Made by a program: the position numbers and the translations under genes
Source of the DNA: JACPSX01 sp035288405 [NCBI: bacterium]
GTDB lineage: Bacteria; JACPSX01
DNA length: 11,886 nt
NCBI GenBank assembly: GCA_035288405.1
Contig: DATEAK010000044.1
Span: 1-11,886 of the forward strand
Reading direction: 5' to 3'
Notes under the pieces: generated by a model
Seen by the model: the letters and a program-made list of their open reading frames with translations, nothing else
The model's database searches: none
What the model was told of the DNA's origin: nothing
Shown here: positions 727-10,640 of the stretch, one piece after another
Position numbering within the stretch: position 1 is the stretch's first letter
How the letters are laid out: every line of letters starts with the position of its first letter

Positions 727-3378
727 GTGCTGTCCTCTAGTCAAACAAGATTCTCTTTCAGCCTCCGGACTCTTTGTCCTCCTCTCCACCTTCTTTGCGT
801 ATTTGTGATTGGTCTGACCGTCCTGTCCTACGAGATCATTCTGACTCGATTCTTCTCGGCCCTGTTCTCCTATCATTTCGTGTTTGTTGCCGTGTCCCTG
901 GCCGTTCTCGGTTTGGGGTTAGGCGGTCTGTTTGCCACCAGATTCCCGAAGGGGGATGAGGCTGTTCCCCTTGTGTATGGCGTTCTGCAGGGGAGATCCG
1001 CATTCTTCCTTGGACTTTCACTCCTTATTGTCCTCGTTTTGTTTGCCAATTTTCCCTGGGTCCAAGGCGTGTGGTTTTTTAGCTTGGTCGCTCTTTTGCC
1101 ATTCGGTGTAGCCGGGTATTCTCTCGCCATGACGATGCGGTTGTTCTCCAGAGAGAGTTCACGAGTCTACTGGGCTGATCTCAGCGGCGGGGCGCTGGGC
1201 ACTCTTCTCATCGTGGTTGGGCTCCAGAAATGGGGACCCGTAGGGGCACTCCTCTTTCTCTTTGCTCTGATCACTCTAATTTCCGGATTGTGCTTTCTCC
1301 AGGCCCGCACCTGGAAGTGGTTCGGAGCGGTCTCAAGCCTTTTCTTACTTCTTATTCCTTTGTGGGAATTGAGCACTCCGGGAGGACCGGTGGACTTACG
1401 CGGGGGTCGCAGGCAAGGATCAGAGAATCAACTGAGCCGGCTGTTTCAGAATCCTGAACTCGGAACGACTCTCATCTCAAGTAAATGGAACGCCTTCGCC
1501 CGCACGGATGTGGTTGAAATTTGGGAGGCGGAAAAACGGGCTCGACTCCTGTTCACGGACGGCGGCGGGGCTTCCCTGATTCCCCAGTTTCCGGGTGATT
1601 TGCTGGAGCATTCCTGGGTTGAGGAAGATCCGGGGCTGTTTCCCTTTCTCGCCGCCGCTCCCAGGAAAGTCCTGGTGATAGGAGCTGGCGGCGGGCGGGA
1701 TGTCCTCCTGTCTCTCCGGGGCGGGGCCAAAGAAATTACGGCGGTAGACATAAACCCCGAGACCCTGAGAGCCGTGAGGCGTTACGCGGGGGATCTGGTC
1801 CGGCTCAAGAACGTACGCTGGGTTGTGGATGAGGGAAGGGGATTTTTGCAGGGCAGCAAGGAGCGGTATGATCTCATCTATCTCCCCCTGGTCTACACGG
1901 ATCGTCCCGAAGCCATCAGTTATTCTCTGGTGGAGAATTACGTCTTCACCCGCGAGGCGTTCCGGGAATATCTCGATCACCTCACGGAAAAGGGGTTGCT
2001 GGTCGTCCGGTCCCACGATTTTAACGACTTTACCCGGGCAGCGCTTACCGCTCTGGAGGCCCTGGAAGGGCGGAACGGAAATTATTCCGGAGCCATGGGC
2101 CACCTGATCGGTGTGCACCGCAGCGACGGTTTCCTCCTGGATCCCCAGGAGGTGAGCTATCCGCTGTTGCTGGTTCGCAGAACTCCCTACCAACCCCAGG
2201 AGTCCTCACGCATTCTGAAGATTGCACTTGGGGCCGGGATGTATCCAATTTTTATCCCGGGGCTGGTTGCACGGTTTCCGTTCACGGCTCTTGCCGCCGG
2301 CCGGGAAACCCCGCAGAAATTTAGCAGTCGCTTTCCTCAAAACTTTACACCGACTCGGGATGATCGGCCGTTCTTTTACCAAATGAATCGATTCCCACCC
2401 CGGCCGTTGACGCTTTTGCTTCTGTTCGTATCCGCCGTCTTGCTGACTTTGCTCTTTGTCTACTTCCGGCACTGCGGGAGTTTCCCTCTGCGGCGCCCTT
2501 TAAAAGCGGCGGCCCTCTATTTCTCCGCCTTGGGTGTAGGATACATGTTGATTGAAGTGGCTCTCCTGCAGCGCTTCCTCCAGCTCCTCGGGTTTCCCAC
2601 CCTAACATTTTCCGTTCTCTTGTTTGTCCTTCTTCTTGCCGGAGGAGTGGGGAGCTGGTGCAGCCGGTTGATTCCCGTGGAACGAACTGCTCGGTTTGTC
2701 TCAATTCTGGTGCTTGGACTCCTCGTTGCGAGTTTCCTTTTTTCCCGGGCTTTGCCTCCTTTGTTTTCCTGGGCTGCCTCCCTGGATCTTTGGACGCGAT
2801 CGCTCGTATCCATGGCAGTTCTCTTTCCGTTGGGTTTTTTCCTGGGAATCCCTTTCCCTATTGGGATTCGTCTCCTGGAACACGGAGGTCTAGAGAGCGA
2901 GATCCCCTGGATGTGGGGGCTCAACGGGGTCGCTTCGGTGCTGGGATCGGTGGCGGCTGTGGCGATGGCGCTGATCCTGGGAACAAGCTGGGCCTTCCTA
3001 CTGGGGGGACTTTGCTACTGGGCGCTTGTGCCGACCGCTCTCCGAGGGCTCTCGGAGCACTCCGTTGCTCCTTCTCCGAGATGCCCTTCCGAGTCTGGAG
3101 GTGGCGGCTCCACGGGAATCTGGTGGGCTAACAGCGAATTACCGTTTCGATTCAGGCGTGTTGGCAGGCAAGGGAACAGAAAGCCTGCCTCTCGGAGCTG
3201 GCGCGAGCCGCAGATCGACTTGCCGCCTGGTAGCGGACGGCCCCGCAGGCTGTGCGCACCGTTGCTCGCACTGAGTTGCCATGAGCCTTCGGCTCACCCG
3301 TGCATCATGAAAATCCCCCCTCCCTTTCCCTCCCCGAGGGGGGAGGGAAAGGGAGGGGGTGAGCAGAGGATTTTCTAG
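727..3378 (+). CDS. Multi-pass membrane protein with spermidine-synthase-like Rossmann domain
   Basis: The ORF has 883 codons from a GTG; no clear ribosome site is seen, and coupling to the small gene ending 4 bases upstream is likely. Order: about seven hydrophobic segments (residues ~20-215), a soluble Rossmann domain (~240-550), and about seven more segments (~560-773). In the Rossmann domain the nucleotide loop is KVLVIGAGGGRD (314-325), the ribose-binding acid is in VDINP (D341), and DEGRGFL follows (368-374). This is the layout of the membrane-embedded spermine/spermidine-synthase-like family. At the site where true aminopropyltransferases carry a catalytic acidic motif (DSxDP type) this protein reads YDLIYLPLVYTD (381-392), so polyamine synthesis is doubtful and a methyltransferase-like or substrate-binding role is possible. 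Residues ~774-883 are Arg/Pro/Ser/Gly-rich, unlike the rest, and run through repeats; the true end is probably near 3050-3131, with a frameshift possible. Confidence 0.75.
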   Translation: MLSSSQTRFSFSLRTLCPPLHLLCVFVIGLTVLSYEIILTRFFSALFSYHFVFVAVSLAVLGLGLGGLFATRFPKGDEAVPLVYGVLQGRSAFFLGLSLLIVLVLFANFPWVQGVWFFSLVALLPFGVAGYSLAMTMRLFSRESSRVYWADLSGGALGTLLIVVGLQKWGPVGALLFLFALITLISGLCFLQARTWKWFGAVSSLFLLLIPLWELSTPGGPVDLRGGRRQGSENQLSRLFQNPELGTTLISSKWNAFARTDVVEIWEAEKRARLLFTDGGGASLIPQFPGDLLEHSWVEEDPGLFPFLAAAPRKVLVIGAGGGRDVLLSLRGGAKEITAVDINPETLRAVRRYAGDLVRLKNVRWVVDEGRGFLQGSKERYDLIYLPLVYTDRPEAISYSLVENYVFTREAFREYLDHLTEKGLLVVRSHDFNDFTRAALTALEALEGRNGNYSGAMGHLIGVHRSDGFLLDPQEVSYPLLLVRRTPYQPQESSRILKIALGAGMYPIFIPGLVARFPFTALAAGRETPQKFSSRFPQNFTPTRDDRPFFYQMNRFPPRPLTLLLLFVSAVLLTLLFVYFRHCGSFPLRRPLKAAALYFSALGVGYMLIEVALLQRFLQLLGFPTLTFSVLLFVLLLAGGVGSWCSRLIPVERTARFVSILVLGLLVASFLFSRALPPLFSWAASLDLWTRSLVSMAVLFPLGFFLGIPFPIGIRLLEHGGLESEIPWMWGLNGVASVLGSVAAVAMALILGTSWAFLLGGLCYWALVPTALRGLSEHSVAPSPRCPSESGGGGSTGIWWANSELPFRFRRVGRQGNRKPASRSWREPQIDLPPGSGRPRRLCAPLLALSCHEPSAHPCIMKIPPPFPSPRGEGKGGGEQRIF
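3282..3296. repeat. Small hairpin TGAGCC-TTC-GGCTCA
   Basis: A perfect 6-base stem with a 3-base loop, inside the presumed non-coding tail of the upstream ORF. No T-run follows. Its position supports the view that this part of the ORF is not protein-coding. Confidence 0.4.
3309..3375. repeat. Long palindromic intergenic element, possible bidirectional terminator
   Basis: The core is a perfect 20-base inverted repeat of C/T-rich (3316-3335) and G/A-rich (3340-3359) arms around a 4-base loop GAGG. The outer edges are also inverted: GAAAATCC (3309-3316) and GGATTTTC (3368-3375). The homopurine/homopyrimidine arms and the GAAAATCC/GGATTTTC borders match a widespread class of bacterial intergenic palindromes that annotation pipelines often mis-translate as Pro-Ser-Pro-Arg-Gly-Glu-Gly peptides; that comparison is from memory. 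It lies between convergent genes (the large + strand ORF and the - strand binding-protein gene), where it could end transcription from both sides. Copies elsewhere in the genome are expected. Confidence 0.8.
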
Positions 3379-3410: not shown

Positions 3411-4415
3411 TCAGGGGGTGTAATAGCTGTCGATATAGCCGGCTGCCTCCTTGGCGAACATCCCCATCTCCATAGCCTCCCGGAGATAGTTCTTGGAGGC
3501 CCTCAGCGCGGAGGCATCAGGCCAGGTGAAGTCTGCCGGGAGCAAGAACTCCCGGGTCCGCTGCCAGGCCAGAGTGAGCTCTTCGGGCTTGTCCAATCCA
3601 AAGAACTGTTTCGCATACTTCCGGAAATGGGCCTCATCCTGCTGGACGCCCCGGTAGGCCTCCGTCCAGGCGGCCCGCAGCTTGGAGGCCAGAGCGGGGT
3701 TTGCCTTGATCCAGGGTTCCAGGCCGCCAAGCCAGATTATGGGGAAGACTTTGGTGTTCAGAAGGGTGTTTAGCTCATCCCGAAATCCCAGGATCGTTCT
3801 GTATTTTCCCGTCATGAGAAGCCGGGAGACATGGGATTCCCAGAGGATGCCCGCTTGCACCTCGCCCCTTTCCAGCACGGCGATGATCGCCGGCGCTCCG
3901 AGCTTTTTCAGTTGAAAATCCTTTTCGATGTTGAAGCCTTTTTTCCTCATCATGAAGTCAAACAAGTTGTACAGGCCGGTTATTTCCGGGGTGAGGGCGA
4001 TGGATTTCCCCTTCAGATCTTCCACCTTCTGGTACGGCGAATCCTTCCGGACCAGAACGTACATATGGGAGGTCTGATAGGGCTGGATCAGGCGGATCGG
4101 GATGCCCTGCATGTTGGCCCGCAGCCCCGCCTCGGGCGTCATCAACCCCACGGAAATGGCCTGTACGCCCAGAAGACGCTGGATCTCCGGGACGCCCGCC
4201 CAGCGCGGTTTCATGATGAACCCGTTCTTGCGGTCCAGGCCCTTGTCCAGAATGTACTGGCCTCCCAGGCCGAAAAGCCCGTCCTGGGGAAGGCCCACCT
4301 CGACCGTGGGGAGCTCGGCCGCCTGTACTTTCGGAAAAGAAGCCGATATTCCCCACAGGGACATCAGGACTACCGCGGCGATGATCAGGATCTTGCTGGA
4401 ATGCCTTCTCATCAT
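3411..4415 (-). CDS. NitT/TauT-type ABC transporter substrate-binding protein
   Basis: 334 residues from an ATG preceded by a strong GAGGAGG site 4 bases upstream; the start overlaps the ATPase stop as TAATG, a sign of translational coupling (a second ATG follows at once). The N-terminus is a signal peptide: MMRRHSSK, a hydrophobic stretch (residues ~9-26) and an Ala-X-Ala-type cleavage region near AAVVL...VQAAE (~33-35). The mature part has the SsuA/NMT1-like periplasmic binding fold: PTVEVGLPQDG at the start, a mid-protein VEDLKGKSIALTPE segment typical of the lobe crossover, and a C-terminal helical region. In this family such proteins capture small ligands (nitrate, sulfonates, taurine, pyrimidine precursors and others) in the periplasm. 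No residue pattern I can read fixes the ligand. It is the last gene of the importer operon, convergent with the large membrane protein. Confidence 0.88.
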   Translation of the reverse strand: MMRRHSSKILIIAAVVLMSLWGISASFPKVQAAELPTVEVGLPQDGLFGLGGQYILDKGLDRKNGFIMKPRWAGVPEIQRLLGVQAISVGLMTPEAGLRANMQGIPIRLIQPYQTSHMYVLVRKDSPYQKVEDLKGKSIALTPEITGLYNLFDFMMRKKGFNIEKDFQLKKLGAPAIIAVLERGEVQAGILWESHVSRLLMTGKYRTILGFRDELNTLLNTKVFPIIWLGGLEPWIKANPALASKLRAAWTEAYRGVQQDEAHFRKYAKQFFGLDKPEELTLAWQRTREFLLPADFTWPDASALRASKNYLREAMEMGMFAKEAAGYIDSYYTP

Positions 4416-5188
4416 TAAACCTCCTCTTTGATGAGATTGAGAACCGTCTGGAGCACCTTTTTCTTGAACTCGATAAAGTGCAAGTCGTCCAGGCTCCTCT
4501 CCGTGCCGGGAAAGGGGTTATCGAAAATGTTCACGACGCGCGCGGGCCTGGCGGACAGGACCACGATCCGATCTCCCATGTAGGCGGCTTCCTCCACGTC
4601 GTGGGTCACTAAAAGGGTGGTCTGCTTCAGGAGGGCGCAGATCGAAAGCGTATCCTCTCGCAACTTACGGGCTGTCAACTGATCCAGCTTGCTGTAAGGC
4701 TCGTCCATGAGAAGAACTTCCGGCTGGACCACGAGGCCGCGGGCGAGCCCGATTCTCTGGCGCATCCCCCCGGACAGATAGAGGGGGTACTGCTTGCGGA
4801 ACTCGAGAAGGCCCACCAAGTCCAGGTATTTGTGAACCCGCTCCGGCCATTCAGAGGAAGGCACCTTCATGCCTTTCAGGGCGAAGATGAGGTTGTCTTC
4901 CACGCGCTTCCAGTTGAGCAGGCGGGGGTCTTGGAACACATACCCCAGCTTCGGCGGACGGGCCCCCGACTTCTGGTGGTTCGAGATGATCTCCACCTGG
5001 CCCCGATCCACGCGATCGAGGCCCGAGATCACGTTCAGAAGGGTGGACTTGCCGCAGCCCGACGGGCCCAGCAGGCAGGTGATGTCGTACGCCTTCGTAT
5101 CGAAGGAAACCCCATCCAGGACCAGCATCTCGGTGCCGTCTTCCCGGGGGAAGAACTTGACGGCCCGATCCACATGGATATAGGCCAT
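4415..5188 (-). CDS. NitT/TauT-type ABC transporter ATP-binding protein
   Basis: 257 residues, close to the usual length for SsuB/TauB/NrtD-type ATPases. All motifs are intact: Walker A GPSGCGKST (41-49), Q-loop glutamine in YVFQDPRLL (Q86), signature LSGGMRQR (138-145), Walker B VLLMDEP with catalytic E163 (158-164), D-loop SKLD, and H-loop histidine in LVTHDVEEA (H196). It hydrolyses ATP on the cytoplasmic face to drive import through the permease encoded just upstream. The ATG lies 3 bases after the permease stop, and its own stop overlaps the start of the binding-protein gene by one base. The dimer would be a homodimer, since only one ATPase gene is present. Ligand unknown. Confidence 0.93.
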   Translation of the reverse strand: MAYIHVDRAVKFFPREDGTEMLVLDGVSFDTKAYDITCLLGPSGCGKSTLLNVISGLDRVDRGQVEIISNHQKSGARPPKLGYVFQDPRLLNWKRVEDNLIFALKGMKVPSSEWPERVHKYLDLVGLLEFRKQYPLYLSGGMRQRIGLARGLVVQPEVLLMDEPYSKLDQLTARKLREDTLSICALLKQTTLLVTHDVEEAAYMGDRIVVLSARPARVVNIFDNPFPGTERSLDDLHFIEFKKKVLQTVLNLIKEEV

Positions 5189-5191
5189 GGG

Positions 5192-6061
5192 TCAACGCCT
5201 CCACGCCTCGACCCGGGGGCGCCAGCGCGTCACAGTTCGCTCGAACCACCCGATGAGGCCGAACTCGATCAGGATCATGACGATCAGGAAGGTGAGGGCC
5301 CAGGCCAGCACGGTCTTCATGGAGAAGACGTTGAAGCCTCGGACCACCTGATAGCCCACTCCATCGCTGAAGCCGAACATTTCCACCACCACGACTACTT
5401 TCCAGGCCAGTCCCAGACCGTAACGGATGGCCGCCAGGATATGGGAGATGAGCTGAGGCAGGATCACCTCGACGATTTTCATCAGGGGAGTGGCCTGGAA
5501 GACATTGCTCATGTCGATGAGATCTTTGTCGATGGACTTCGTGCCCTGCCAGATGCTGATGGTCAGCATGGGAAAGATCGTGATGGCCACGGCGGCATAG
5601 GCGCTGGTCTCCGTCAGGCCGAAGAACATGATCATGAGCACGGCCCAAATGAGTCCCGGCATGGTGAGCCCCAGAATGACGGGCGGTTCGAAAAAGCTCT
5701 CCATGTTGCGCAGAGTTCCCATGAGGATCCCGAGCGGGATGCTGACGGCCATGGCCAGGCCGAAGCCGACCAGGACCCGGCGCAGCGTACTCCCCATCTC
5801 CACGAAGAAGTTTCCCGAGCTGATGATGGCACCCGCCTCCGCGAGAGTTTCCCAGGGCTTGGGGATCAGGGTAGGGGGGAAAATCAGGCTCAGGATCCAC
5901 CAGATAAAGAAGATCGCCACGACAGAGGCGATCCTGAGACTGTTGTTCCAAACCGCCTTCTTCCCGCGGGCAGCTTTTGGGCGGGGAGGGACCAGCACAT
6001 CGTCTTGGGAAAAGGGTTCCGCTTCGCCCGGCACGACCAGGGCCTTCTCTTGCTTTGCCAC
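5192..6061 (-). CDS. NitT/TauT-type ABC transporter permease
   Basis: 289 residues from a GTG with GAGGA about 9 bases upstream. A ~40-residue polar cytoplasmic N-terminus rich in Lys/Pro precedes about six membrane segments, beginning with IASVVAIFFIWWILSLIF (~47-64). The cytoplasmic coupling (EAA) loop is visible as DMSNVFQATPLMKIVEVILPQ (about residues 182-202), the region that docks on the ATPase. The length and layout fit SsuC/TauC/NrtB-type permeases, apart from a slightly long N-terminus. It is the first gene of the operon permease-ATPase-binding protein. No metabolic enzyme that would reveal the substrate is adjacent. The divergent or preceding gene on the same strand (selenoprotein) is separated by 186 bases containing a hairpin and a probable promoter. 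Confidence 0.9.
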   Translation of the reverse strand: MAKQEKALVVPGEAEPFSQDDVLVPPRPKAARGKKAVWNNSLRIASVVAIFFIWWILSLIFPPTLIPKPWETLAEAGAIISSGNFFVEMGSTLRRVLVGFGLAMAVSIPLGILMGTLRNMESFFEPPVILGLTMPGLIWAVLMIMFFGLTETSAYAAVAITIFPMLTISIWQGTKSIDKDLIDMSNVFQATPLMKIVEVILPQLISHILAAIRYGLGLAWKVVVVVEMFGFSDGVGYQVVRGFNVFSMKTVLAWALTFLIVMILIEFGLIGWFERTVTRWRPRVEAWRR

Positions 6062-6247: not shown

Positions 6248-6823
6248 TCAGAAGGGCTGGTCCTCTTTCAGAAGAGCAGCGATGAGACGCTCGGCCTCCG
6301 GACTCTGCCAATTGCGGGGGCCGATGGCCAGGGCCGCAATGCGCCCTTGCTTATCGATGAGAAAAGACTCCGGGTGCCCGGTGATCCCGAACCGGGCCGA
6401 AACTTCGGACCGGCTGTCCAGAAGGACGGGAAACGTCCATCCCAACTCCCGGGAGCGCTCACTCACGATATCCTCGGCTTCCCCCACATCGATGGCCAGT
6501 AGAGCAAAATCGGGGTGGCCTTTGTGTTCTTGAAAGAGTTTTTCTACAGAAGGACCCTCCTGTTTACAACTGTGTCACCAAGTAGTGCGGAAGTTGAGCA
6601 TCACGACCCGGCCTCTGTATTCACGCAAGTTGACCGTCCTTCCCCCGAGGACCTTCAGGGAAAGTTCAGGGGCCTCACGCCGCTCCTGGAGAAGCTTAGC
6701 AAAGACCTGGTAGCCTTCCTCCGTCCGCTGTTGCTGTTTGGCCTTGATCAATGTGCTGCGGGCCAGGAGACCGAGGAACAAAAGGACAAGCGGGACAACG
6801 ATCCAGGCAATGCGACGCTTCAT
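6248..6823 (-). CDS. Membrane-anchored TlpA/ResA-like thioredoxin selenoprotein (UxxC)
   Basis: One uninterrupted frame of 191 residues if the TGA at 6577-6575 is read as selenocysteine (U83). Residues 5-26 form an N-terminal membrane anchor, placing the rest in the periplasm. A thioredoxin fold follows: ELSLKVLGGRTVNLREYRG, the beta strand VVMLNF, the active site T-W-U83-H-S-C86, the central strand FALLAIDV, and the cis-proline loop GITGHPESFLID. C86 is the only cysteine in the protein, so U83 and C86 form the redox pair in place of the usual WCxxC. The frame and homology continue seamlessly on both sides of the TGA, and the TGA falls exactly on the first active-site cysteine. Family members reduce or exchange periplasmic disulfides, in ResA/CcmG those of apocytochrome c. 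The ATG overlaps the stop of the upstream gene (ATGA), with GGAG 7 bases upstream. Main alternative: a pseudogene by a Cys-to-stop point mutation. The terminal stop is also TGA, with no hairpin like the one below recognised after it. Confidence 0.85.
6546..6563 (-). promoter_or_regulatory. Candidate bacterial SECIS element
   Basis: On the mRNA, 11 bases after the UGA, a 7-pair stem ACAGGAG / CUUCUGU (one G-U pair) closes a 4-base loop GGUC. Bacterial SECIS elements lie in the coding region just after the UGA and present a G-rich apical loop to SelB. In E. coli fdhF, as I recall its sequence, the loop GGU also starts 18 bases after the UGA, the same distance as here, and the UGA is likewise followed by CAC. 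The element lies inside the selenoprotein gene and codes for K-Q-E-G-P-S-V. Confidence 0.7.
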
Positions 6824-7365
6824 GGCTTGGCTCCATCGAAGGGTTTGATTTTCACTAGAAGTTCGTGCAGGGCCTTTTGCGCGGCTCCGGGGTCCACGGC
6901 GAGCCAGACGTTCCGCTTGCCAGCGCCGTAGAAGTAGTGTTGCTGTCCCTGGCCGTCCACGGTGTAGACGACCTTGCCCCCGATGTCGAATTCCTGAAAA
7001 TTGCTGTAGGGACCGCGCCCGCGGCGAATTTCCGCCGTCATCATTTGCAAGAGTTGCAGCGACTGCTCCAGGTTTTTAGATTCCGACAACCAGACCATGG
7101 CCTTGGAAGTCTTGTTGCTGTAGTGGCCGACGAAGCCGTCTTTCAGGTCGAAGGTCTTGCCATGGAGGCGAGAAATATCCTTTAGGGCTTCCTTCCCCTG
7201 GAGAGAGTGGTCCAGACGCATGTCGCCAAGAGTTGCAGGGAGGGGTATTTGCTTGGTCCCAGCGCCCGCCTGCAGGGGGATGATCGCAAAGAGCAGGAAA
7301 CCAAGAACAGAGAAAAACAGCCGGTAATTGATTCGATGGCTCCTTCTGGAGCTTTTCACTGACAC
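6820..7365 (-). CDS. Cysteine-free exported protein of unknown function, selenoprotein partner
   Basis: 181 residues from the GTG at 7365, chosen because AAGGAGG (7380-7374) lies 8 bases before it; a longer reading from a TTG at 7398 would put that site inside the gene, and a second GTG lies at 7359. The N-terminus is basic (KSSRRSHR), followed by a hydrophobic stretch (LFFSVLGFLLFAIIPL) and QAGAG, a likely signal peptide. The mature domain of ~145 residues starts IPLPATLGDMRL and contains RLHGKTFDLKDGFVGHY, a VVYTVDGQGQQHYFYGAGKR strand pair and WLAVDP near the end. It has no cysteine. I do not recognise a named family. Its stop overlaps the selenoprotein start (ATGA), so the two are tightly coupled and probably work together in the periplasm. 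Confidence 0.8.
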   Translation of the reverse strand: MSVKSSRRSHRINYRLFFSVLGFLLFAIIPLQAGAGTKQIPLPATLGDMRLDHSLQGKEALKDISRLHGKTFDLKDGFVGHYSNKTSKAMVWLSESKNLEQSLQLLQMMTAEIRRGRGPYSNFQEFDIGGKVVYTVDGQGQQHYFYGAGKRNVWLAVDPGAAQKALHELLVKIKPFDGAKP

Positions 7366-7373
7366 AGTAAGGT

Positions 7374-7380
7374 CCTCCTT
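7374..7380 (-). promoter_or_regulatory. Ribosome binding site fixing the exported protein's GTG start
   Basis: AAGGAGG on the - strand, 8 bases before the GTG at 7365. It decides for this start over the upstream in-frame TTG at 7398. Confidence 0.7.
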
Positions 7381-7423
7381 TTGGATCGGTACACTCAAAA
7401 CTCATTGACACCGGTTGCAGATA

Positions 7424-7486
7424 TGCAAGTTTTCTGCCGTTTCCGCTGCCTGTCGCCCGGGTGCGGGGGCTTATTCGAAACTTGCA
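7424..7486. repeat. 9-base inverted repeat in the leader of the selenoprotein unit
   Basis: TGCAAGTTT (7424-7432) and AAACTTGCA (7478-7486) are perfect inverted repeats 45 bases apart, upstream of the exported-protein gene. The interval contains G/C-rich sequence (GCCCGGGTGCGGGGGC) that could form its own structure. It may be a protein-binding site pair or part of a structured 5' leader. Confidence 0.35.
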
Positions 7487-7520
7487 AGAACCCTTTTGTA
7501 TCCAACCGTCATACCGAGAT

Positions 7521-7543
7521 CGAGCTTGTCGAACCACGAAGGG
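7521..7543. repeat. Partial copy of a common intergenic repeat
   Basis: CGAGCTTGTCGAACCACGAA followed by GGG resembles half of a widespread intergenic palindrome built on GAGCTTGTCGAACCACGAA, seen in many environmental bacterial genomes. The comparison is from memory. The opposite arm is not recognisable here, so it would be a degenerate copy. Confidence 0.35.
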
Positions 7544-7777
7544 TGCTAACTGAGAATGTTCCTTGAGTGATCATCGGCTTGCCAAAATGTCGGGATGCTG
7601 CCGGGGCTTTGCGCTGTTTTTGCCAGTTTGTCAAGAGCCGCCGATTTCAGTCTCGTTGCCGTCGCGGCAGAATCACAGATGCCTTCTCTAGTCAGTATTT
7701 ACGGCCCTGCTCCCCATTTTTCCGATGGCATCGTGTTTGCTAGACAGGAGAAGGGAAGCTTGATTTAGGGGCAGTAC

Positions 7778-8170
7778 ATGGAAACAGAAAGCAGTAGCAA
7801 AGAGACGGGAAATCTCAGATTCAAGAAGTTTCTCTGGATTCTGCTTCCCGTTGTCTTCGTCGTCTATCTGGCCTGGTCTTCAACCCGGTCGGGGGAGATC
7901 GGAGTCAACGAAACGCAATTTACCAAGCAGGGTGAGAAAGTCTGGGTATCCGGGATGGTGACCAACCGATTGCGAAATCCTGTGGAGCACGTGGAGATTC
8001 AAGTCGAGTTCTTCAGTAGCTCGCACGAGAAGGTAGGGGAGAGCAAAGCCCGGGTCGAGGGGATTCCTGCTCGCGGGAGCGTTCCTTTTCATACTGCGGC
8101 CCAGCAGATTCCCTTTGCCGCTCATTTCCGCGTCAGCGTAGCGAACTATCGCAATCCCTATGGCAATTGA
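7778..8170 (+). CDS. Single-pass membrane protein with FxLYD-like domain
   Basis: 130 residues from an ATG with a modest AGGGG site 7 bases upstream. A ~18-residue polar N-terminus is followed by one membrane segment (about residues 20-36, LWILLPVVFVVYLAWS). The periplasmic part (~45-128) has the beta-sandwich pattern of FxLYD-type domains: KVWVSGMVTNRLRNPVEHVEI, then VEFFSSSHEKVGES, then a Gly-rich proline turn (IPARGSVPFH) and a final strand AHFRVSVANY. The family is found in many envelope proteins and its biochemical role is not defined. It is the first gene of the ccm operon, 18 bases before ccmF, so it may help assemble or stabilise the heme lyase complex; that is inference. Confidence 0.75.
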   Translation: METESSSKETGNLRFKKFLWILLPVVFVVYLAWSSTRSGEIGVNETQFTKQGEKVWVSGMVTNRLRNPVEHVEIQVEFFSSSHEKVGESKARVEGIPARGSVPFHTAAQQIPFAAHFRVSVANYRNPYGN

Positions 8171-8176
8171 GGCTTG

Positions 8177-8182
8177 AAGGAG
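8177..8182 (+). promoter_or_regulatory. Ribosome binding site fixing the ccmF ATG start
   Basis: AAGGAG, 6 bases before the ATG at 8189. An in-frame TTG at 8174 would overlap this site and is rejected as the start. Confidence 0.8.
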
Positions 8183-8188
8183 ATCCTC

Positions 8189-10183
8189 ATGATGAACACC
8201 CTTGGAGAATTTTCCCTCCTCTTGTCACTGGCTGTGGCCGCTTATTCCGGGGCAGCGGCATTGCTGGGTCATCGGAAAAAGCGACCCGAATTGGTGCGCT
8301 CCTCGGAGCAAGCCTCCCTGGCTCTTGTGTTCCTCCTCGGGGTTTCCACACTTGCGCTCATGGCGGCCTTCCTGCGAAATGATTTCAGCCTGGCTTACGT
8401 GATGAACTATTCTCGCAAGGGTCAGGGTCTTGCCTACAAGATATCGGCTTTGTACGGGGGGCAGGATGGCTCACTGCTGTTGTGGAGCTTCGTGCTCTCC
8501 ATCTTTGTGGCCGTTGTGACCCTGCAAAACCGCTACCGGCACAGGGAACTGATGCCTTACGTCACTGCCACCTGCATGGCCATCTCGATTTTCTTTCTCT
8601 CGGTACTCAATTTCTCTTCGAACCCGTTTACGCCCGTCCCCGTTCCGCCTCCCGATGGCCATGGTCTCAACCCCCTGCTGCAGAACCCGGGCATGTTTTT
8701 CCACCCCCCGACCCTTTACATCGGCTACGTGGGCTTCACGATCCCCTTTGCCTTTGCCATTGCCGCTCTGATCACGGGGCGCTTGGGAGACGAGTGGATC
8801 CGTAGTACCCGGCGCTGGACGCTGGTCACCTGGTTCTTCCTGACACTGGGAAACATGTTCGGAGCTTGGTGGGCTTATGAAGTTCTGGGCTGGGGAGGAT
8901 ATTGGGCCTGGGATCCCGTGGAAAACGCCTCGTTCCTGCCATGGCTCACGGGAACGGCTTACCTGCACTCGGTGATGATCCAGGAAAAGAAAGATATGCT
9001 GAAGATCTGGAACATGGTCCTCATTATCGCGACCTTCGGGCTTTCCATCCTGGGTACGTTTCTTACCCGCAGCGGCATTCTCTCGTCCGTCCACACGTTC
9101 TCCCAGACGGGCCTCGGCCCGTTGTTCCTGGGCTTTCTTGCCTTTGTCCTTCTGGTTTCTCTGGGACTTCTCTTTTACCGCTTGCCGGACCTGAGGAGCA
9201 AGAATGAGCTCGATGGGCTGGTGTCCCGCGAGACGAGTTTCCTGGTGAACAATCTCCTGCTCGTGGGTGTGGCGTTTACGGTACTGTGGGGGACTTTCTA
9301 TCCGCTCATTGCCGAGGCCGTGCGTGGAGTGAAAGTCACCGTAGGGCCGCCCTTCTTCAACCAGGTCATGATTCCCATCGGAATCGCACTCCTGTTCCTC
9401 GCCGGGATCTGCCCTCTGATCGCCTGGCGGCGGGCTTCCATGGCCAATCTGCGGCGAAACTTTCTCCTGCCCTTCCTGGCGGCTCTTCTGGGTGCTGTTC
9501 TCCTCATCCCGGTTGTAGGAGTTGGAGATCCACTGGTCAATTTCACCTTCGGGCTTCTCCTCTTTGTGGCGATCACCATCGGAGCCGAGTTCTACCGGGG
9601 GGCGAGGGCACGGTCCCACATGACGGGGGAAGGCTTCGCCAAGGCCTTCACCAATCTGGTGGCCCGCAACAAGAGGCGCTACGGCGGCTACATCATCCAT
9701 CTGGGGATCCTCCTCCTGGTTCTGGCTGTCGCCGGCGGCGCCTTCAAGGTGGAGAAGGATGCTTATGTAAAGAAGGGGGAATCGCTGGAGATCGGCCCTT
9801 ATACCCTGAAGTACGAAGATCTGGTCGGGTATCCGAAGGGGGACACGATGATTGTGGCGGCCCGGGTGGCGGTCTACAAAGGGGGGAAACTTTTGCAGAC
9901 TCTTTTGCCGCAAAAGCAGTTTCACCCTGGTTCCGAACAGCCCCACGGGATGGTGGCTATCCGCAGCACGCTGAAGGAAGATCTTTACGTGATCCTGGCG
10001 AGCTATGACCCCCACGGTGCCTCCTTTCGCATTCTCATCAATCCCTTGATGATGTGGATGTGGATCGGCACGTACATCATGGGCTTTGGAATCCTGGTGG
10101 TCATGGGAAGTGAGCGTCCCCGCAAGACCCGCCGGACGGTCCCGGCCGCTGCCACGGAGGTGCCCGAAAATGCGCTGGTCTGA
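8189..10183 (+). CDS. ccmF: Cytochrome c heme lyase subunit CcmF
   Basis: 664 residues, normal for CcmF/NrfE. It takes heme from holo-CcmE and, with CcmH-type partners, attaches it to the CxxCH cysteines of apocytochromes c on the periplasmic side. About a dozen or more membrane segments are visible. The heme-handling WWD domain is intact (WGGYWAWDPVENASF, about residues 235-249). The four conserved histidines are present: H172 in FFHPP, H260 in AYLHS, H302 in SSVHTF and H504 in YIIHLG; these correspond to the P-His and WWD-flanking His pairs of E. coli CcmF. A soluble C-terminal domain (~510-620) precedes the last membrane helix (MMWMWIGTYIMGFGILVVM). The 3' end overlaps ccmH by 14 bases. 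No ccmA-E genes are in the window. Among System I proteins the choice between CcmF and the specialised NrfE cannot be settled by sequence alone. Confidence 0.96.
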   Translation: MMNTLGEFSLLLSLAVAAYSGAAALLGHRKKRPELVRSSEQASLALVFLLGVSTLALMAAFLRNDFSLAYVMNYSRKGQGLAYKISALYGGQDGSLLLWSFVLSIFVAVVTLQNRYRHRELMPYVTATCMAISIFFLSVLNFSSNPFTPVPVPPPDGHGLNPLLQNPGMFFHPPTLYIGYVGFTIPFAFAIAALITGRLGDEWIRSTRRWTLVTWFFLTLGNMFGAWWAYEVLGWGGYWAWDPVENASFLPWLTGTAYLHSVMIQEKKDMLKIWNMVLIIATFGLSILGTFLTRSGILSSVHTFSQTGLGPLFLGFLAFVLLVSLGLLFYRLPDLRSKNELDGLVSRETSFLVNNLLLVGVAFTVLWGTFYPLIAEAVRGVKVTVGPPFFNQVMIPIGIALLFLAGICPLIAWRRASMANLRRNFLLPFLAALLGAVLLIPVVGVGDPLVNFTFGLLLFVAITIGAEFYRGARARSHMTGEGFAKAFTNLVARNKRRYGGYIIHLGILLLVLAVAGGAFKVEKDAYVKKGESLEIGPYTLKYEDLVGYPKGDTMIVAARVAVYKGGKLLQTLLPQKQFHPGSEQPHGMVAIRSTLKEDLYVILASYDPHGASFRILINPLMMWMWIGTYIMGFGILVVMGSERPRKTRRTVPAAATEVPENALV

Positions 10184-10640
10184 GCGGGTGCCTAGGATCG
10201 GAGTTTTGTTCATCCTGCTGCTCTTTTCTCCCGCCATGGCGTCGGCCCTCACGATGCGAGACGTGGGCAAGGACTTCATTTGCAACTGCGGTTGCAACAA
10301 CCTCTTGCCGGACTGCGACATGGAATGCGGCGAGCAGTTGAGAAAAGTCATTGCCACCAAAATTGAGCAGGGGTGGGACAAGCCCAAGATCGCTGCTTAC
10401 ATGATCGACAACTACGGAGAGAAGCTGTTGGCAGCGCCCACGAAGAAGGGGTTTAACCTGACCGCTTGGCTCACCCCCTTTGTAGCGATTCTCGTGGCCG
10501 GTGGAGCGATTTTCGCTGTGGTGCGGCGCTGGACTTCCCGGCAGCCTGCTGCTTCCGACGCTCAGGGCAGCGAAGATCTAGCCAGTCTGGAGCAGCGCTA
10601 TCAGAAGCGCTTAGACGCCGAGCTCAAGGATTTTGATTGA
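10170..10640 (+). CDS. ccmH: Cytochrome c maturation protein CcmH (CxCGC type)
   Basis: 156 residues from an ATG with GGAGG 9 bases upstream, overlapping the end of ccmF by 14 bases. A signal peptide or anchor (residues ~10-26, ending MASA) precedes the CcmH/CycL/NrfF domain: VGKDFICNCGCNNLLPDCDMECG (28-54 region), a helix bundle with KIEQGWDKPKIAAYMIDNYGEKLL, then a second membrane helix (TAWLTPFVAILVAGGAIFAVV) and a charged cytoplasmic tail. In canonical members an LRCxxC motif reduces the apocytochrome disulfide. Here the cysteines are C38, C40, C42, C49 and C53, with no CxxC spacing; I recall the CxCGC form from deltaproteobacterial relatives, so it looks like a family variant rather than damage. 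It acts with CcmF at the outer face of the inner membrane. Confidence 0.9.
   Translation: MRWSERVPRIGVLFILLLFSPAMASALTMRDVGKDFICNCGCNNLLPDCDMECGEQLRKVIATKIEQGWDKPKIAAYMIDNYGEKLLAAPTKKGFNLTAWLTPFVAILVAGGAIFAVVRRWTSRQPAASDAQGSEDLASLEQRYQKRLDAELKDFD

Follow-up and report, generated by a model that had tools for sequence, protein, structure and literature searches.

The locus examined here raises the question of whether a gene that appears to be cut in two by a stop codon is broken, or whether this stop codon is instead read as an amino acid. Within the window, by which we mean the whole stretch of 11,886 nucleotides of DNA that was analyzed, the minus-strand frame from 6823 to 6248 translates into 191 residues followed by a terminal TGA (codon 192), and its sole internal stop is a TGA at codon 83. 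In a WCxxC motif of the TlpA/ResA type, this internal TGA takes the place of exactly the first cysteine, giving the active-site motif T-T-W-U-H-S-C-K-Q-E, where U marks codon 83. An earlier note on this DNA had described a frame that is continuous except for this one codon, a single cysteine (C86), and a normal genetic code in which UGA ends neighboring genes, and our translation agrees on each point. Codon 86 is TGT and there is no other Cys codon, and of the ten neighboring frames checked, six have TGA as their terminal codon and all are free of internal stops. Because of these counts, we treat UGA as an ordinary stop in this DNA and reject a genome-wide altered genetic code. Only the N-terminal 82-amino-acid piece of the gene appears in a list of open reading frames with a minimum length of 80 amino acids, and ordinary gene calling would lose the active site. 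For the reasons developed below, we conclude that this seemingly broken gene is very probably intact, and that its ‘stop’ is a selenocysteine (Sec) codon at the active site. The features under discussion are collected in Table 1.

Table 1. Features of the selenoprotein locus and its surroundings, in window coordinates.
Feature	Position	Strand	Basis and remarks
Substrate-binding protein, Phosphonate-bd/NMT1/SsuA-like	3411..4415	-	Pfam/NCBIfam matches
ABC importer ATPase	4415..5188	-	Best NCBIfam match PhnT2, then SaoA (173 bits, cut-off 360); both below cut-offs
ABC importer permease	5192..6061	-	Downstream of selenoprotein gene; best NCBIfam match SaoP (97.3 bits, cut-off 295); Pfam BPD_transp_1
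Predicted selenoprotein gene	6248..6823	-	191 aa + stop; thioredoxin-like, AhpC-TSA/Redoxin domain; U83-H-S-C86
bSECIS-like hairpin ACAGGAG-GGUC-CUUCUGU	6546..6563	-	7-bp stem; loop GGUC at 6556-6553; 18 nt from UGA to loop
Codon 86 (TGT), proposed resolving cysteine	6566..6568	-	No other Cys in the protein
In-frame UGA, codon 83, proposed selenocysteine codon	6575..6577	-	TGA also in L001; Cys or TGA in paralogs
N-terminal hydrophobic helix (codons 6-35), proposed membrane anchor	6719..6808	-	AlphaFold helix, low confidence; hydrophobic by eye
Upstream gene, 192 aa, no family	6820..7398	-	No Pfam/NCBIfam match passes cut-off
CcmF/NrfE-like heme lyase subunit	8174..10183	+	Divergent from selenoprotein gene; best match 456 bits, cut-off 569
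CcmH/NrfF-like protein	10149..10640	+	Pfam CcmH (frame 10086-10640) 73.6 bits, cut-off 25; NrfF 22.7, cut-off 159

With codon 83 read as cysteine for both Pfam scoring and structure prediction, the protein matches AhpC-TSA (PF00578) over residues 49-163 (E 2.8e-20; 73 bits against a cut-off of 26) and Redoxin (PF08534; 60.4 bits against 26.6). The AhpC-TSA match is a single domain that spans the stop, with scoring sequence on both sides of it. The best AlphaFold model has a mean pLDDT of 82 and a pTM of 0.74, with a well-predicted thioredoxin-like domain; the input alignment held five sequences, and three of the five models reach a mean pLDDT of only 60-62. In the PDB, the top matches of the model are ResA and the Geobacter structure 3kcm, the latter with 35-37% identity and a TM to target of 0.91-0.93, and a comparison by sequence points the same way. 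As modeled, the fold is that of ResA/TlpA, and the helix predicted for residues 6-35 is probably a membrane anchor.

Several further residues resemble those of this group. Glu89, three residues past Cys86, is invariant in an alignment of five family members. Its counterpart in the ResA-family chain 4nmu is also a Glu, which we take to be the functional Glu80 of ResA; Pro151, presumably the cis-Pro, is conserved. The window protein has in common with ResA, TlpA and CcmG (DsbE) the fold, a WCxxC-type site, the conserved Pro151, a Glu after the second Cys and a probable anchor, and it differs from them in the Sec predicted in place of the first Cys. The curated models for these proteins all score it below their cut-offs (ResA, NF002854, 91.3 bits against 170; TlpA, 68.5 against 230; CcmG/DsbE, TIGR00385, 53.6 against 123.15), and so the earlier label ‘TlpA/ResA’ is sound for fold and broad family, and not for membership of the curated ResA, TlpA or DsbE families. 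A family of ResA-like WAxxUGC motif-containing selenoproteins (NF041054) also combines a ResA-like domain with a Sec-containing motif, but that motif differs from the WUHSC seen here, its profile has a length of 354, and the match is far below the cut-off (38.6 bits against 300); we reject membership of this family as well.

A scan of a collection of species genomes yielded three loci. Two of these (L002 and L003) come from other phyla, share 27-30% identity with the window protein and were left out of the alignment. The third, L001, is the one close relative on which the following comparison is based, and comes from a 2.9-Mb Candidatus Tectomicrobia groundwater metagenome-assembled genome (MAG), isolate NC_groundwater_717, which we call G001. 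Its homolog is 87% identical to the window protein, carries TGA at the same codon and has no further internal stop, so that scanning a relative’s gene for additional disruptions, as the earlier note had proposed for recognizing a pseudogene, reveals none. The surrounding regions are syntenic in four pieces at 80-90% DNA identity. Between the two species, codons 84-191 have a dN of 0.065 and a dS of 0.44 (NG86), compared with 0.080 and 0.73 for codons 1-82. The low dN relative to dS beyond the UGA indicates that this region is under purifying selection as protein.

Homologs within the phylum were sought in one genome, G001, which holds four matches with E values of 1e-8 or better: the L001 gene and the paralogs L026, L027 and L028, whose identities with the window protein are 36%, 34% and 37%, respectively. 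L026 and L028 carry WCPPC at the active site, and the TAG of L028 is its terminal stop. L027 (L030:6163-6717, minus strand, on contig C245) instead reads W-TGA-PSC (ATW-U-PSC), and its gene overlaps one for a CcdA/DsbD-like protein. The active-site column of the five-row alignment therefore contains TGA in three rows and Cys in two, which is the pattern that had been predicted for a Sec codon, with Cys in some homologs and TGA in others. Judging from this motif, L027 is probably a second selenoprotein of G001. A sole stop among 191 codons that lands on the codon of the catalytic Cys, is kept in a second species and recurs in a paralog reflects more than chance placement. The occurrence of Sec and Cys paralogs in one genome also offers a natural comparison of what Sec contributes to a ResA-like enzyme. 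On either side of L027, two minus-strand frames (L030:4908-5276 and 7310-8026) encode cysteine-rich, repeated NPCA-type units, and the second has a CxxCH site.

Decoding of UGA as Sec requires dedicated machinery, and the earlier note had called for a check of selA, selB, selC and selD. In the relative’s MAG this check has a divided outcome: selB and two copies of selD are present, and selA and tRNA-Sec were not found. The selB gene is full length (639 amino acids; 372.6 bits against a cut-off of 242), and its product has the GTPase and SelB winged-helix domains. Both selD genes (L023:8403-9449, plus strand; L024:3858-4907, minus strand) score far above the cut-off and themselves carry an in-frame TGA in the N-terminal active-site motif, U-A-G-K and U-G-C-K, which fits the UxxK motif that one review gives for Sec-type SelD (PMC13188914). 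Two models for selA found no match in G001. An Rfam model for tRNA-Sec, for which 150 of 508 candidates were scored, gave 12 matches that are other tRNAs, and a tRNA-Sec pattern search gave two matches compared with six for a control pattern. Only 259 bases of its contig precede selB, on the side where selA often lies. The 33 tRNA matches in G001 leave six amino acids uncovered (Ala, Ile, Lys, Gln, Glu and Cys), and the MAG is visibly incomplete. Given the missing tRNAs for six amino acids and the truncated selB contig, the absence of selA and tRNA-Sec is weak evidence against Sec. Tetranucleotide profiles of the contigs with selB, the second selD and L027 correlate with that of L001 at 0.92, 0.90 and 0.93, respectively, and two control loci give -0.1 and -0.3, although these come from other phyla with lower G+C and form a weak control. 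The assignment of these contigs to G001 could conceivably reflect a binning error, and the two selD contigs may mean either that the gene is truly duplicated or that the bin is mixed. On L023, which also carries one of the selD genes, a phosphonate-type binding protein-like frame (by eye; L023:4970-5458) ends at 162 amino acids and is followed by one ATPase-like and two permease-like frames, where a frameshift or assembly fault is possible.

Immediately downstream of the window’s UGA is a hairpin with a perfect 7-bp stem, and the minimum free energy (MFE) of the UGA plus 45 bases is -10.4 kcal/mol. The model of bacterial SECIS elements in the available text of PMC13188914 specifies a loop of 3-9 nt, a stem of 4-16 bp, a distance of 16-37 nt from the UGA, an MFE of -7.5 or lower and a G in the first two loop positions, and the window hairpin conforms to this model as given there. 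In our strict version of the test, in which the loop begins with G followed by G or U and the stem has no upper limit of 16 bp, four of the five putative Sec sites pass (the window gene, L001 and both selD genes, with L027 failing), compared with 36 of 794 other TGA sites in the window and L001. A looser scan is uninformative, with 108 of 250 random TGA sites passing. A tighter version passes three of the five putative Sec sites and four of the 794 background sites, and is not used as evidence because it was tuned after the sites had been seen.

Other properties of this region were also evaluated. The 61-nt stretch at the UGA is no more stable than shuffled sequence (z 0.26). Rfam models give no match over the whole window, and over the UGA region they give two matches that are both far below family thresholds. 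The 50 bases from 6580 to 6531, which contain the hairpin, are identical in the window and L001 and form the longest such run within the selenoprotein gene; the four other identical runs of at least 50 bases, with lengths that include 127, 56 and 53, lie in the importer genes, the longest (127 bases) at 5236-5362. Among the 14 eligible codons that come next after the UGA, none differs synonymously between the window and L001, whereas the gene as a whole has 49 such codons in 160 (P 0.0046); this block was bounded after the alignment had been viewed, and inclusion of the next codon gives 1 of 15 (P 0.026). We regard the hairpin as supporting, and not decisive, evidence for Sec.

The conserved UGA in the Cys column, the constraint beyond it, the hairpin, the SelB and Sec-type SelD of the relative and the predicted ResA/TlpA fold all point in one direction, and the selenoprotein reading of the earlier note is well supported overall. 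We consider it highly probable that the product is a thioredoxin-like thiol-disulfide oxidoreductase, anchored in the membrane and facing away from the cytoplasm, and that codon 83 of its gene is read as Sec under the direction of the hairpin. In the mechanism that we infer, SelB and tRNA-Sec would decode this UGA, with the hairpin just after it directing Sec insertion. At the membrane, Sec83 would be the attacking residue of the U-H-S-C site and Cys86 would then resolve the selenenylsulfide, a catalytic order by which the enzyme would reduce disulfides that are probably periplasmic.

What might such an enzyme serve? Our first guess is a role as apocytochrome c reductase, because of the cytochrome c maturation genes that diverge from the selenoprotein gene. 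This cluster includes, besides the CcmF- and CcmH-like genes, a weakly CcmI-like gene, and no ccmG is evident in the window, including between the ccmF and ccmH genes. The gene immediately upstream of the selenoprotein gene has a TGA stop that overlaps the selenoprotein ATG (ATGA) in both the window and L001, and the two are probably on the same transcript. At the far end of the window, 727-3378 encodes a long protein that looks by eye like a membrane protein and contains a methyltransferase/spermidine-synthase-like stretch; its family matches are all weak.

Our second guess is a partnership with the neighboring ABC importer. A specific form of this idea is that the protein acts as a counterpart of SaoT (NF040730), the thioredoxin-like selenoprotein of the SAO system, rather than as a cytochrome c maturation factor. 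Like SaoT, the window protein is thioredoxin-like and has UxxC, and it lies near an ABC importer whose permease is nearest to SaoP. Here the importer genes are on the same strand as the selenoprotein gene and are conserved in L001, with SaoP as the best match of the permease and SaoA as the second-best match of the ATPase. These scores are all below the cut-offs (Table 1), however, and neither the selenoprotein against SaoT nor the binding protein against SaoB and SaoX matches at E ≤ 0.01. Furthermore, neither the permease nor the binding protein contains a Cys or an in-frame UGA. We therefore reject membership of the SAO system itself and think a SaoT-like role unlikely.

A broader proposal, which is tentative and on balance doubtful, is that this lineage possesses a selenium-dependent branch of periplasmic thiol reduction. 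Such a branch would draw on two or more distinct TlpA-like selenoproteins with UxxC, among them one beside a CcdA/DsbD-like electron carrier and that of the window, the latter coupled either to cytochrome c maturation or to the SaoP/SaoA-related importer. If this is true, Sec rather than Cys carries out the reduction of apocytochrome or substrate.

The reading of codon 83 as Sec must also be weighed against other fates of the UGA. The most durable of these, though very improbable, is that an opal tRNA-Cys of the selC* type, with a UCA anticodon, reads the UGA as cysteine and yields an ordinary WCHSC enzyme. Such tRNAs are described for some anaerobic bacteria in the available text of PMC7609411, and the failure to find tRNA-Sec in G001 would fit this idea. 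That genome nevertheless has selB, as well as selD genes that carry an in-frame TGA; a SECIS-like hairpin lies just past the UGA of the window gene, and the UCA anticodon occurs in none of the 33 tRNA matches, though G001 shows no tRNA-Cys at all. Still less credible is a nonsense mutation, with the locus now either a pseudogene or a pair of fragments that are translated separately. A stop does interrupt the frame, and a GTG at codon 113 could restart translation; this is the first ATG, GTG or TTG after the TGA, and a product begun there would lack the active site. We reject the pseudogene because the diverged relative has the same TGA with constrained codons downstream and no other disruption, and because TGA occupies this position in the paralog L027 too. 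A sequencing or assembly error is the least credible of all and is likewise rejected, since the TGA, as read from the assembled contigs of the window and the MAG, recurs on a separate contig from another species, in a region of 80-90% DNA identity, and in the paralog.

With Sec at codon 83 as the preferred reading, the protein belongs to a known type. Table 1 of PMC13188914 lists UxxC selenoproteins named ‘Prx-like thiol:disulfide oxidoreductase’ (PF00578), ‘Thiol-disulfide isomerase-like protein’ (cd02966) and ‘Redoxin family protein’ (PF08534), and the same source also lists a UGC-type TlpA selenoprotein. The Sargasso Sea set includes 21 UXXC Prx-like and four UXXC thiol-disulfide isomerase-like sequences, according to the accessible part of PMC1088965. 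These entries share with the window protein the PF00578/PF08534 domains, Sec as the first residue of UxxC and a SECIS-like hairpin after the UGA; the likeness is one of domain and motif, and the available text of the two sources does not name the window’s lineage for them. Lists of selenoproteins have included UxxC members with these domains from 2005 onward, and the protein type is not new. The accessible text of PMC7539508 mentions for algae a TlpA selenoprotein with a hemerythrin metal-binding domain. It too is a TlpA-type, thioredoxin-like selenoprotein, but it is eukaryotic, likened here by type, and a hemerythrin domain is not among the Pfam matches of the window protein.

In the literature searched, as far as its available text goes, no paper pairs a selenoprotein with Tectomicrobia, and the combination of selenocysteine and Tectomicrobia leads to papers on sponge symbionts. 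A survey of more than 44,000 groundwater MAGs (Deng et al., 2026, cited in the available text of PMC13188914) may already include the window selenoprotein. What the present analysis adds is a well-supported selenoprotein, together with selB and Sec-type selD, in a little-studied, uncultured, Tectomicrobia-related groundwater lineage. Searches with the window also extended to mobile DNA: viral contigs gave five stretches and no relatives, and plasmid DNA gave 34 records, of which the 20 listed match 50-60 bases at 5016-5075, within the ABC ATPase gene.
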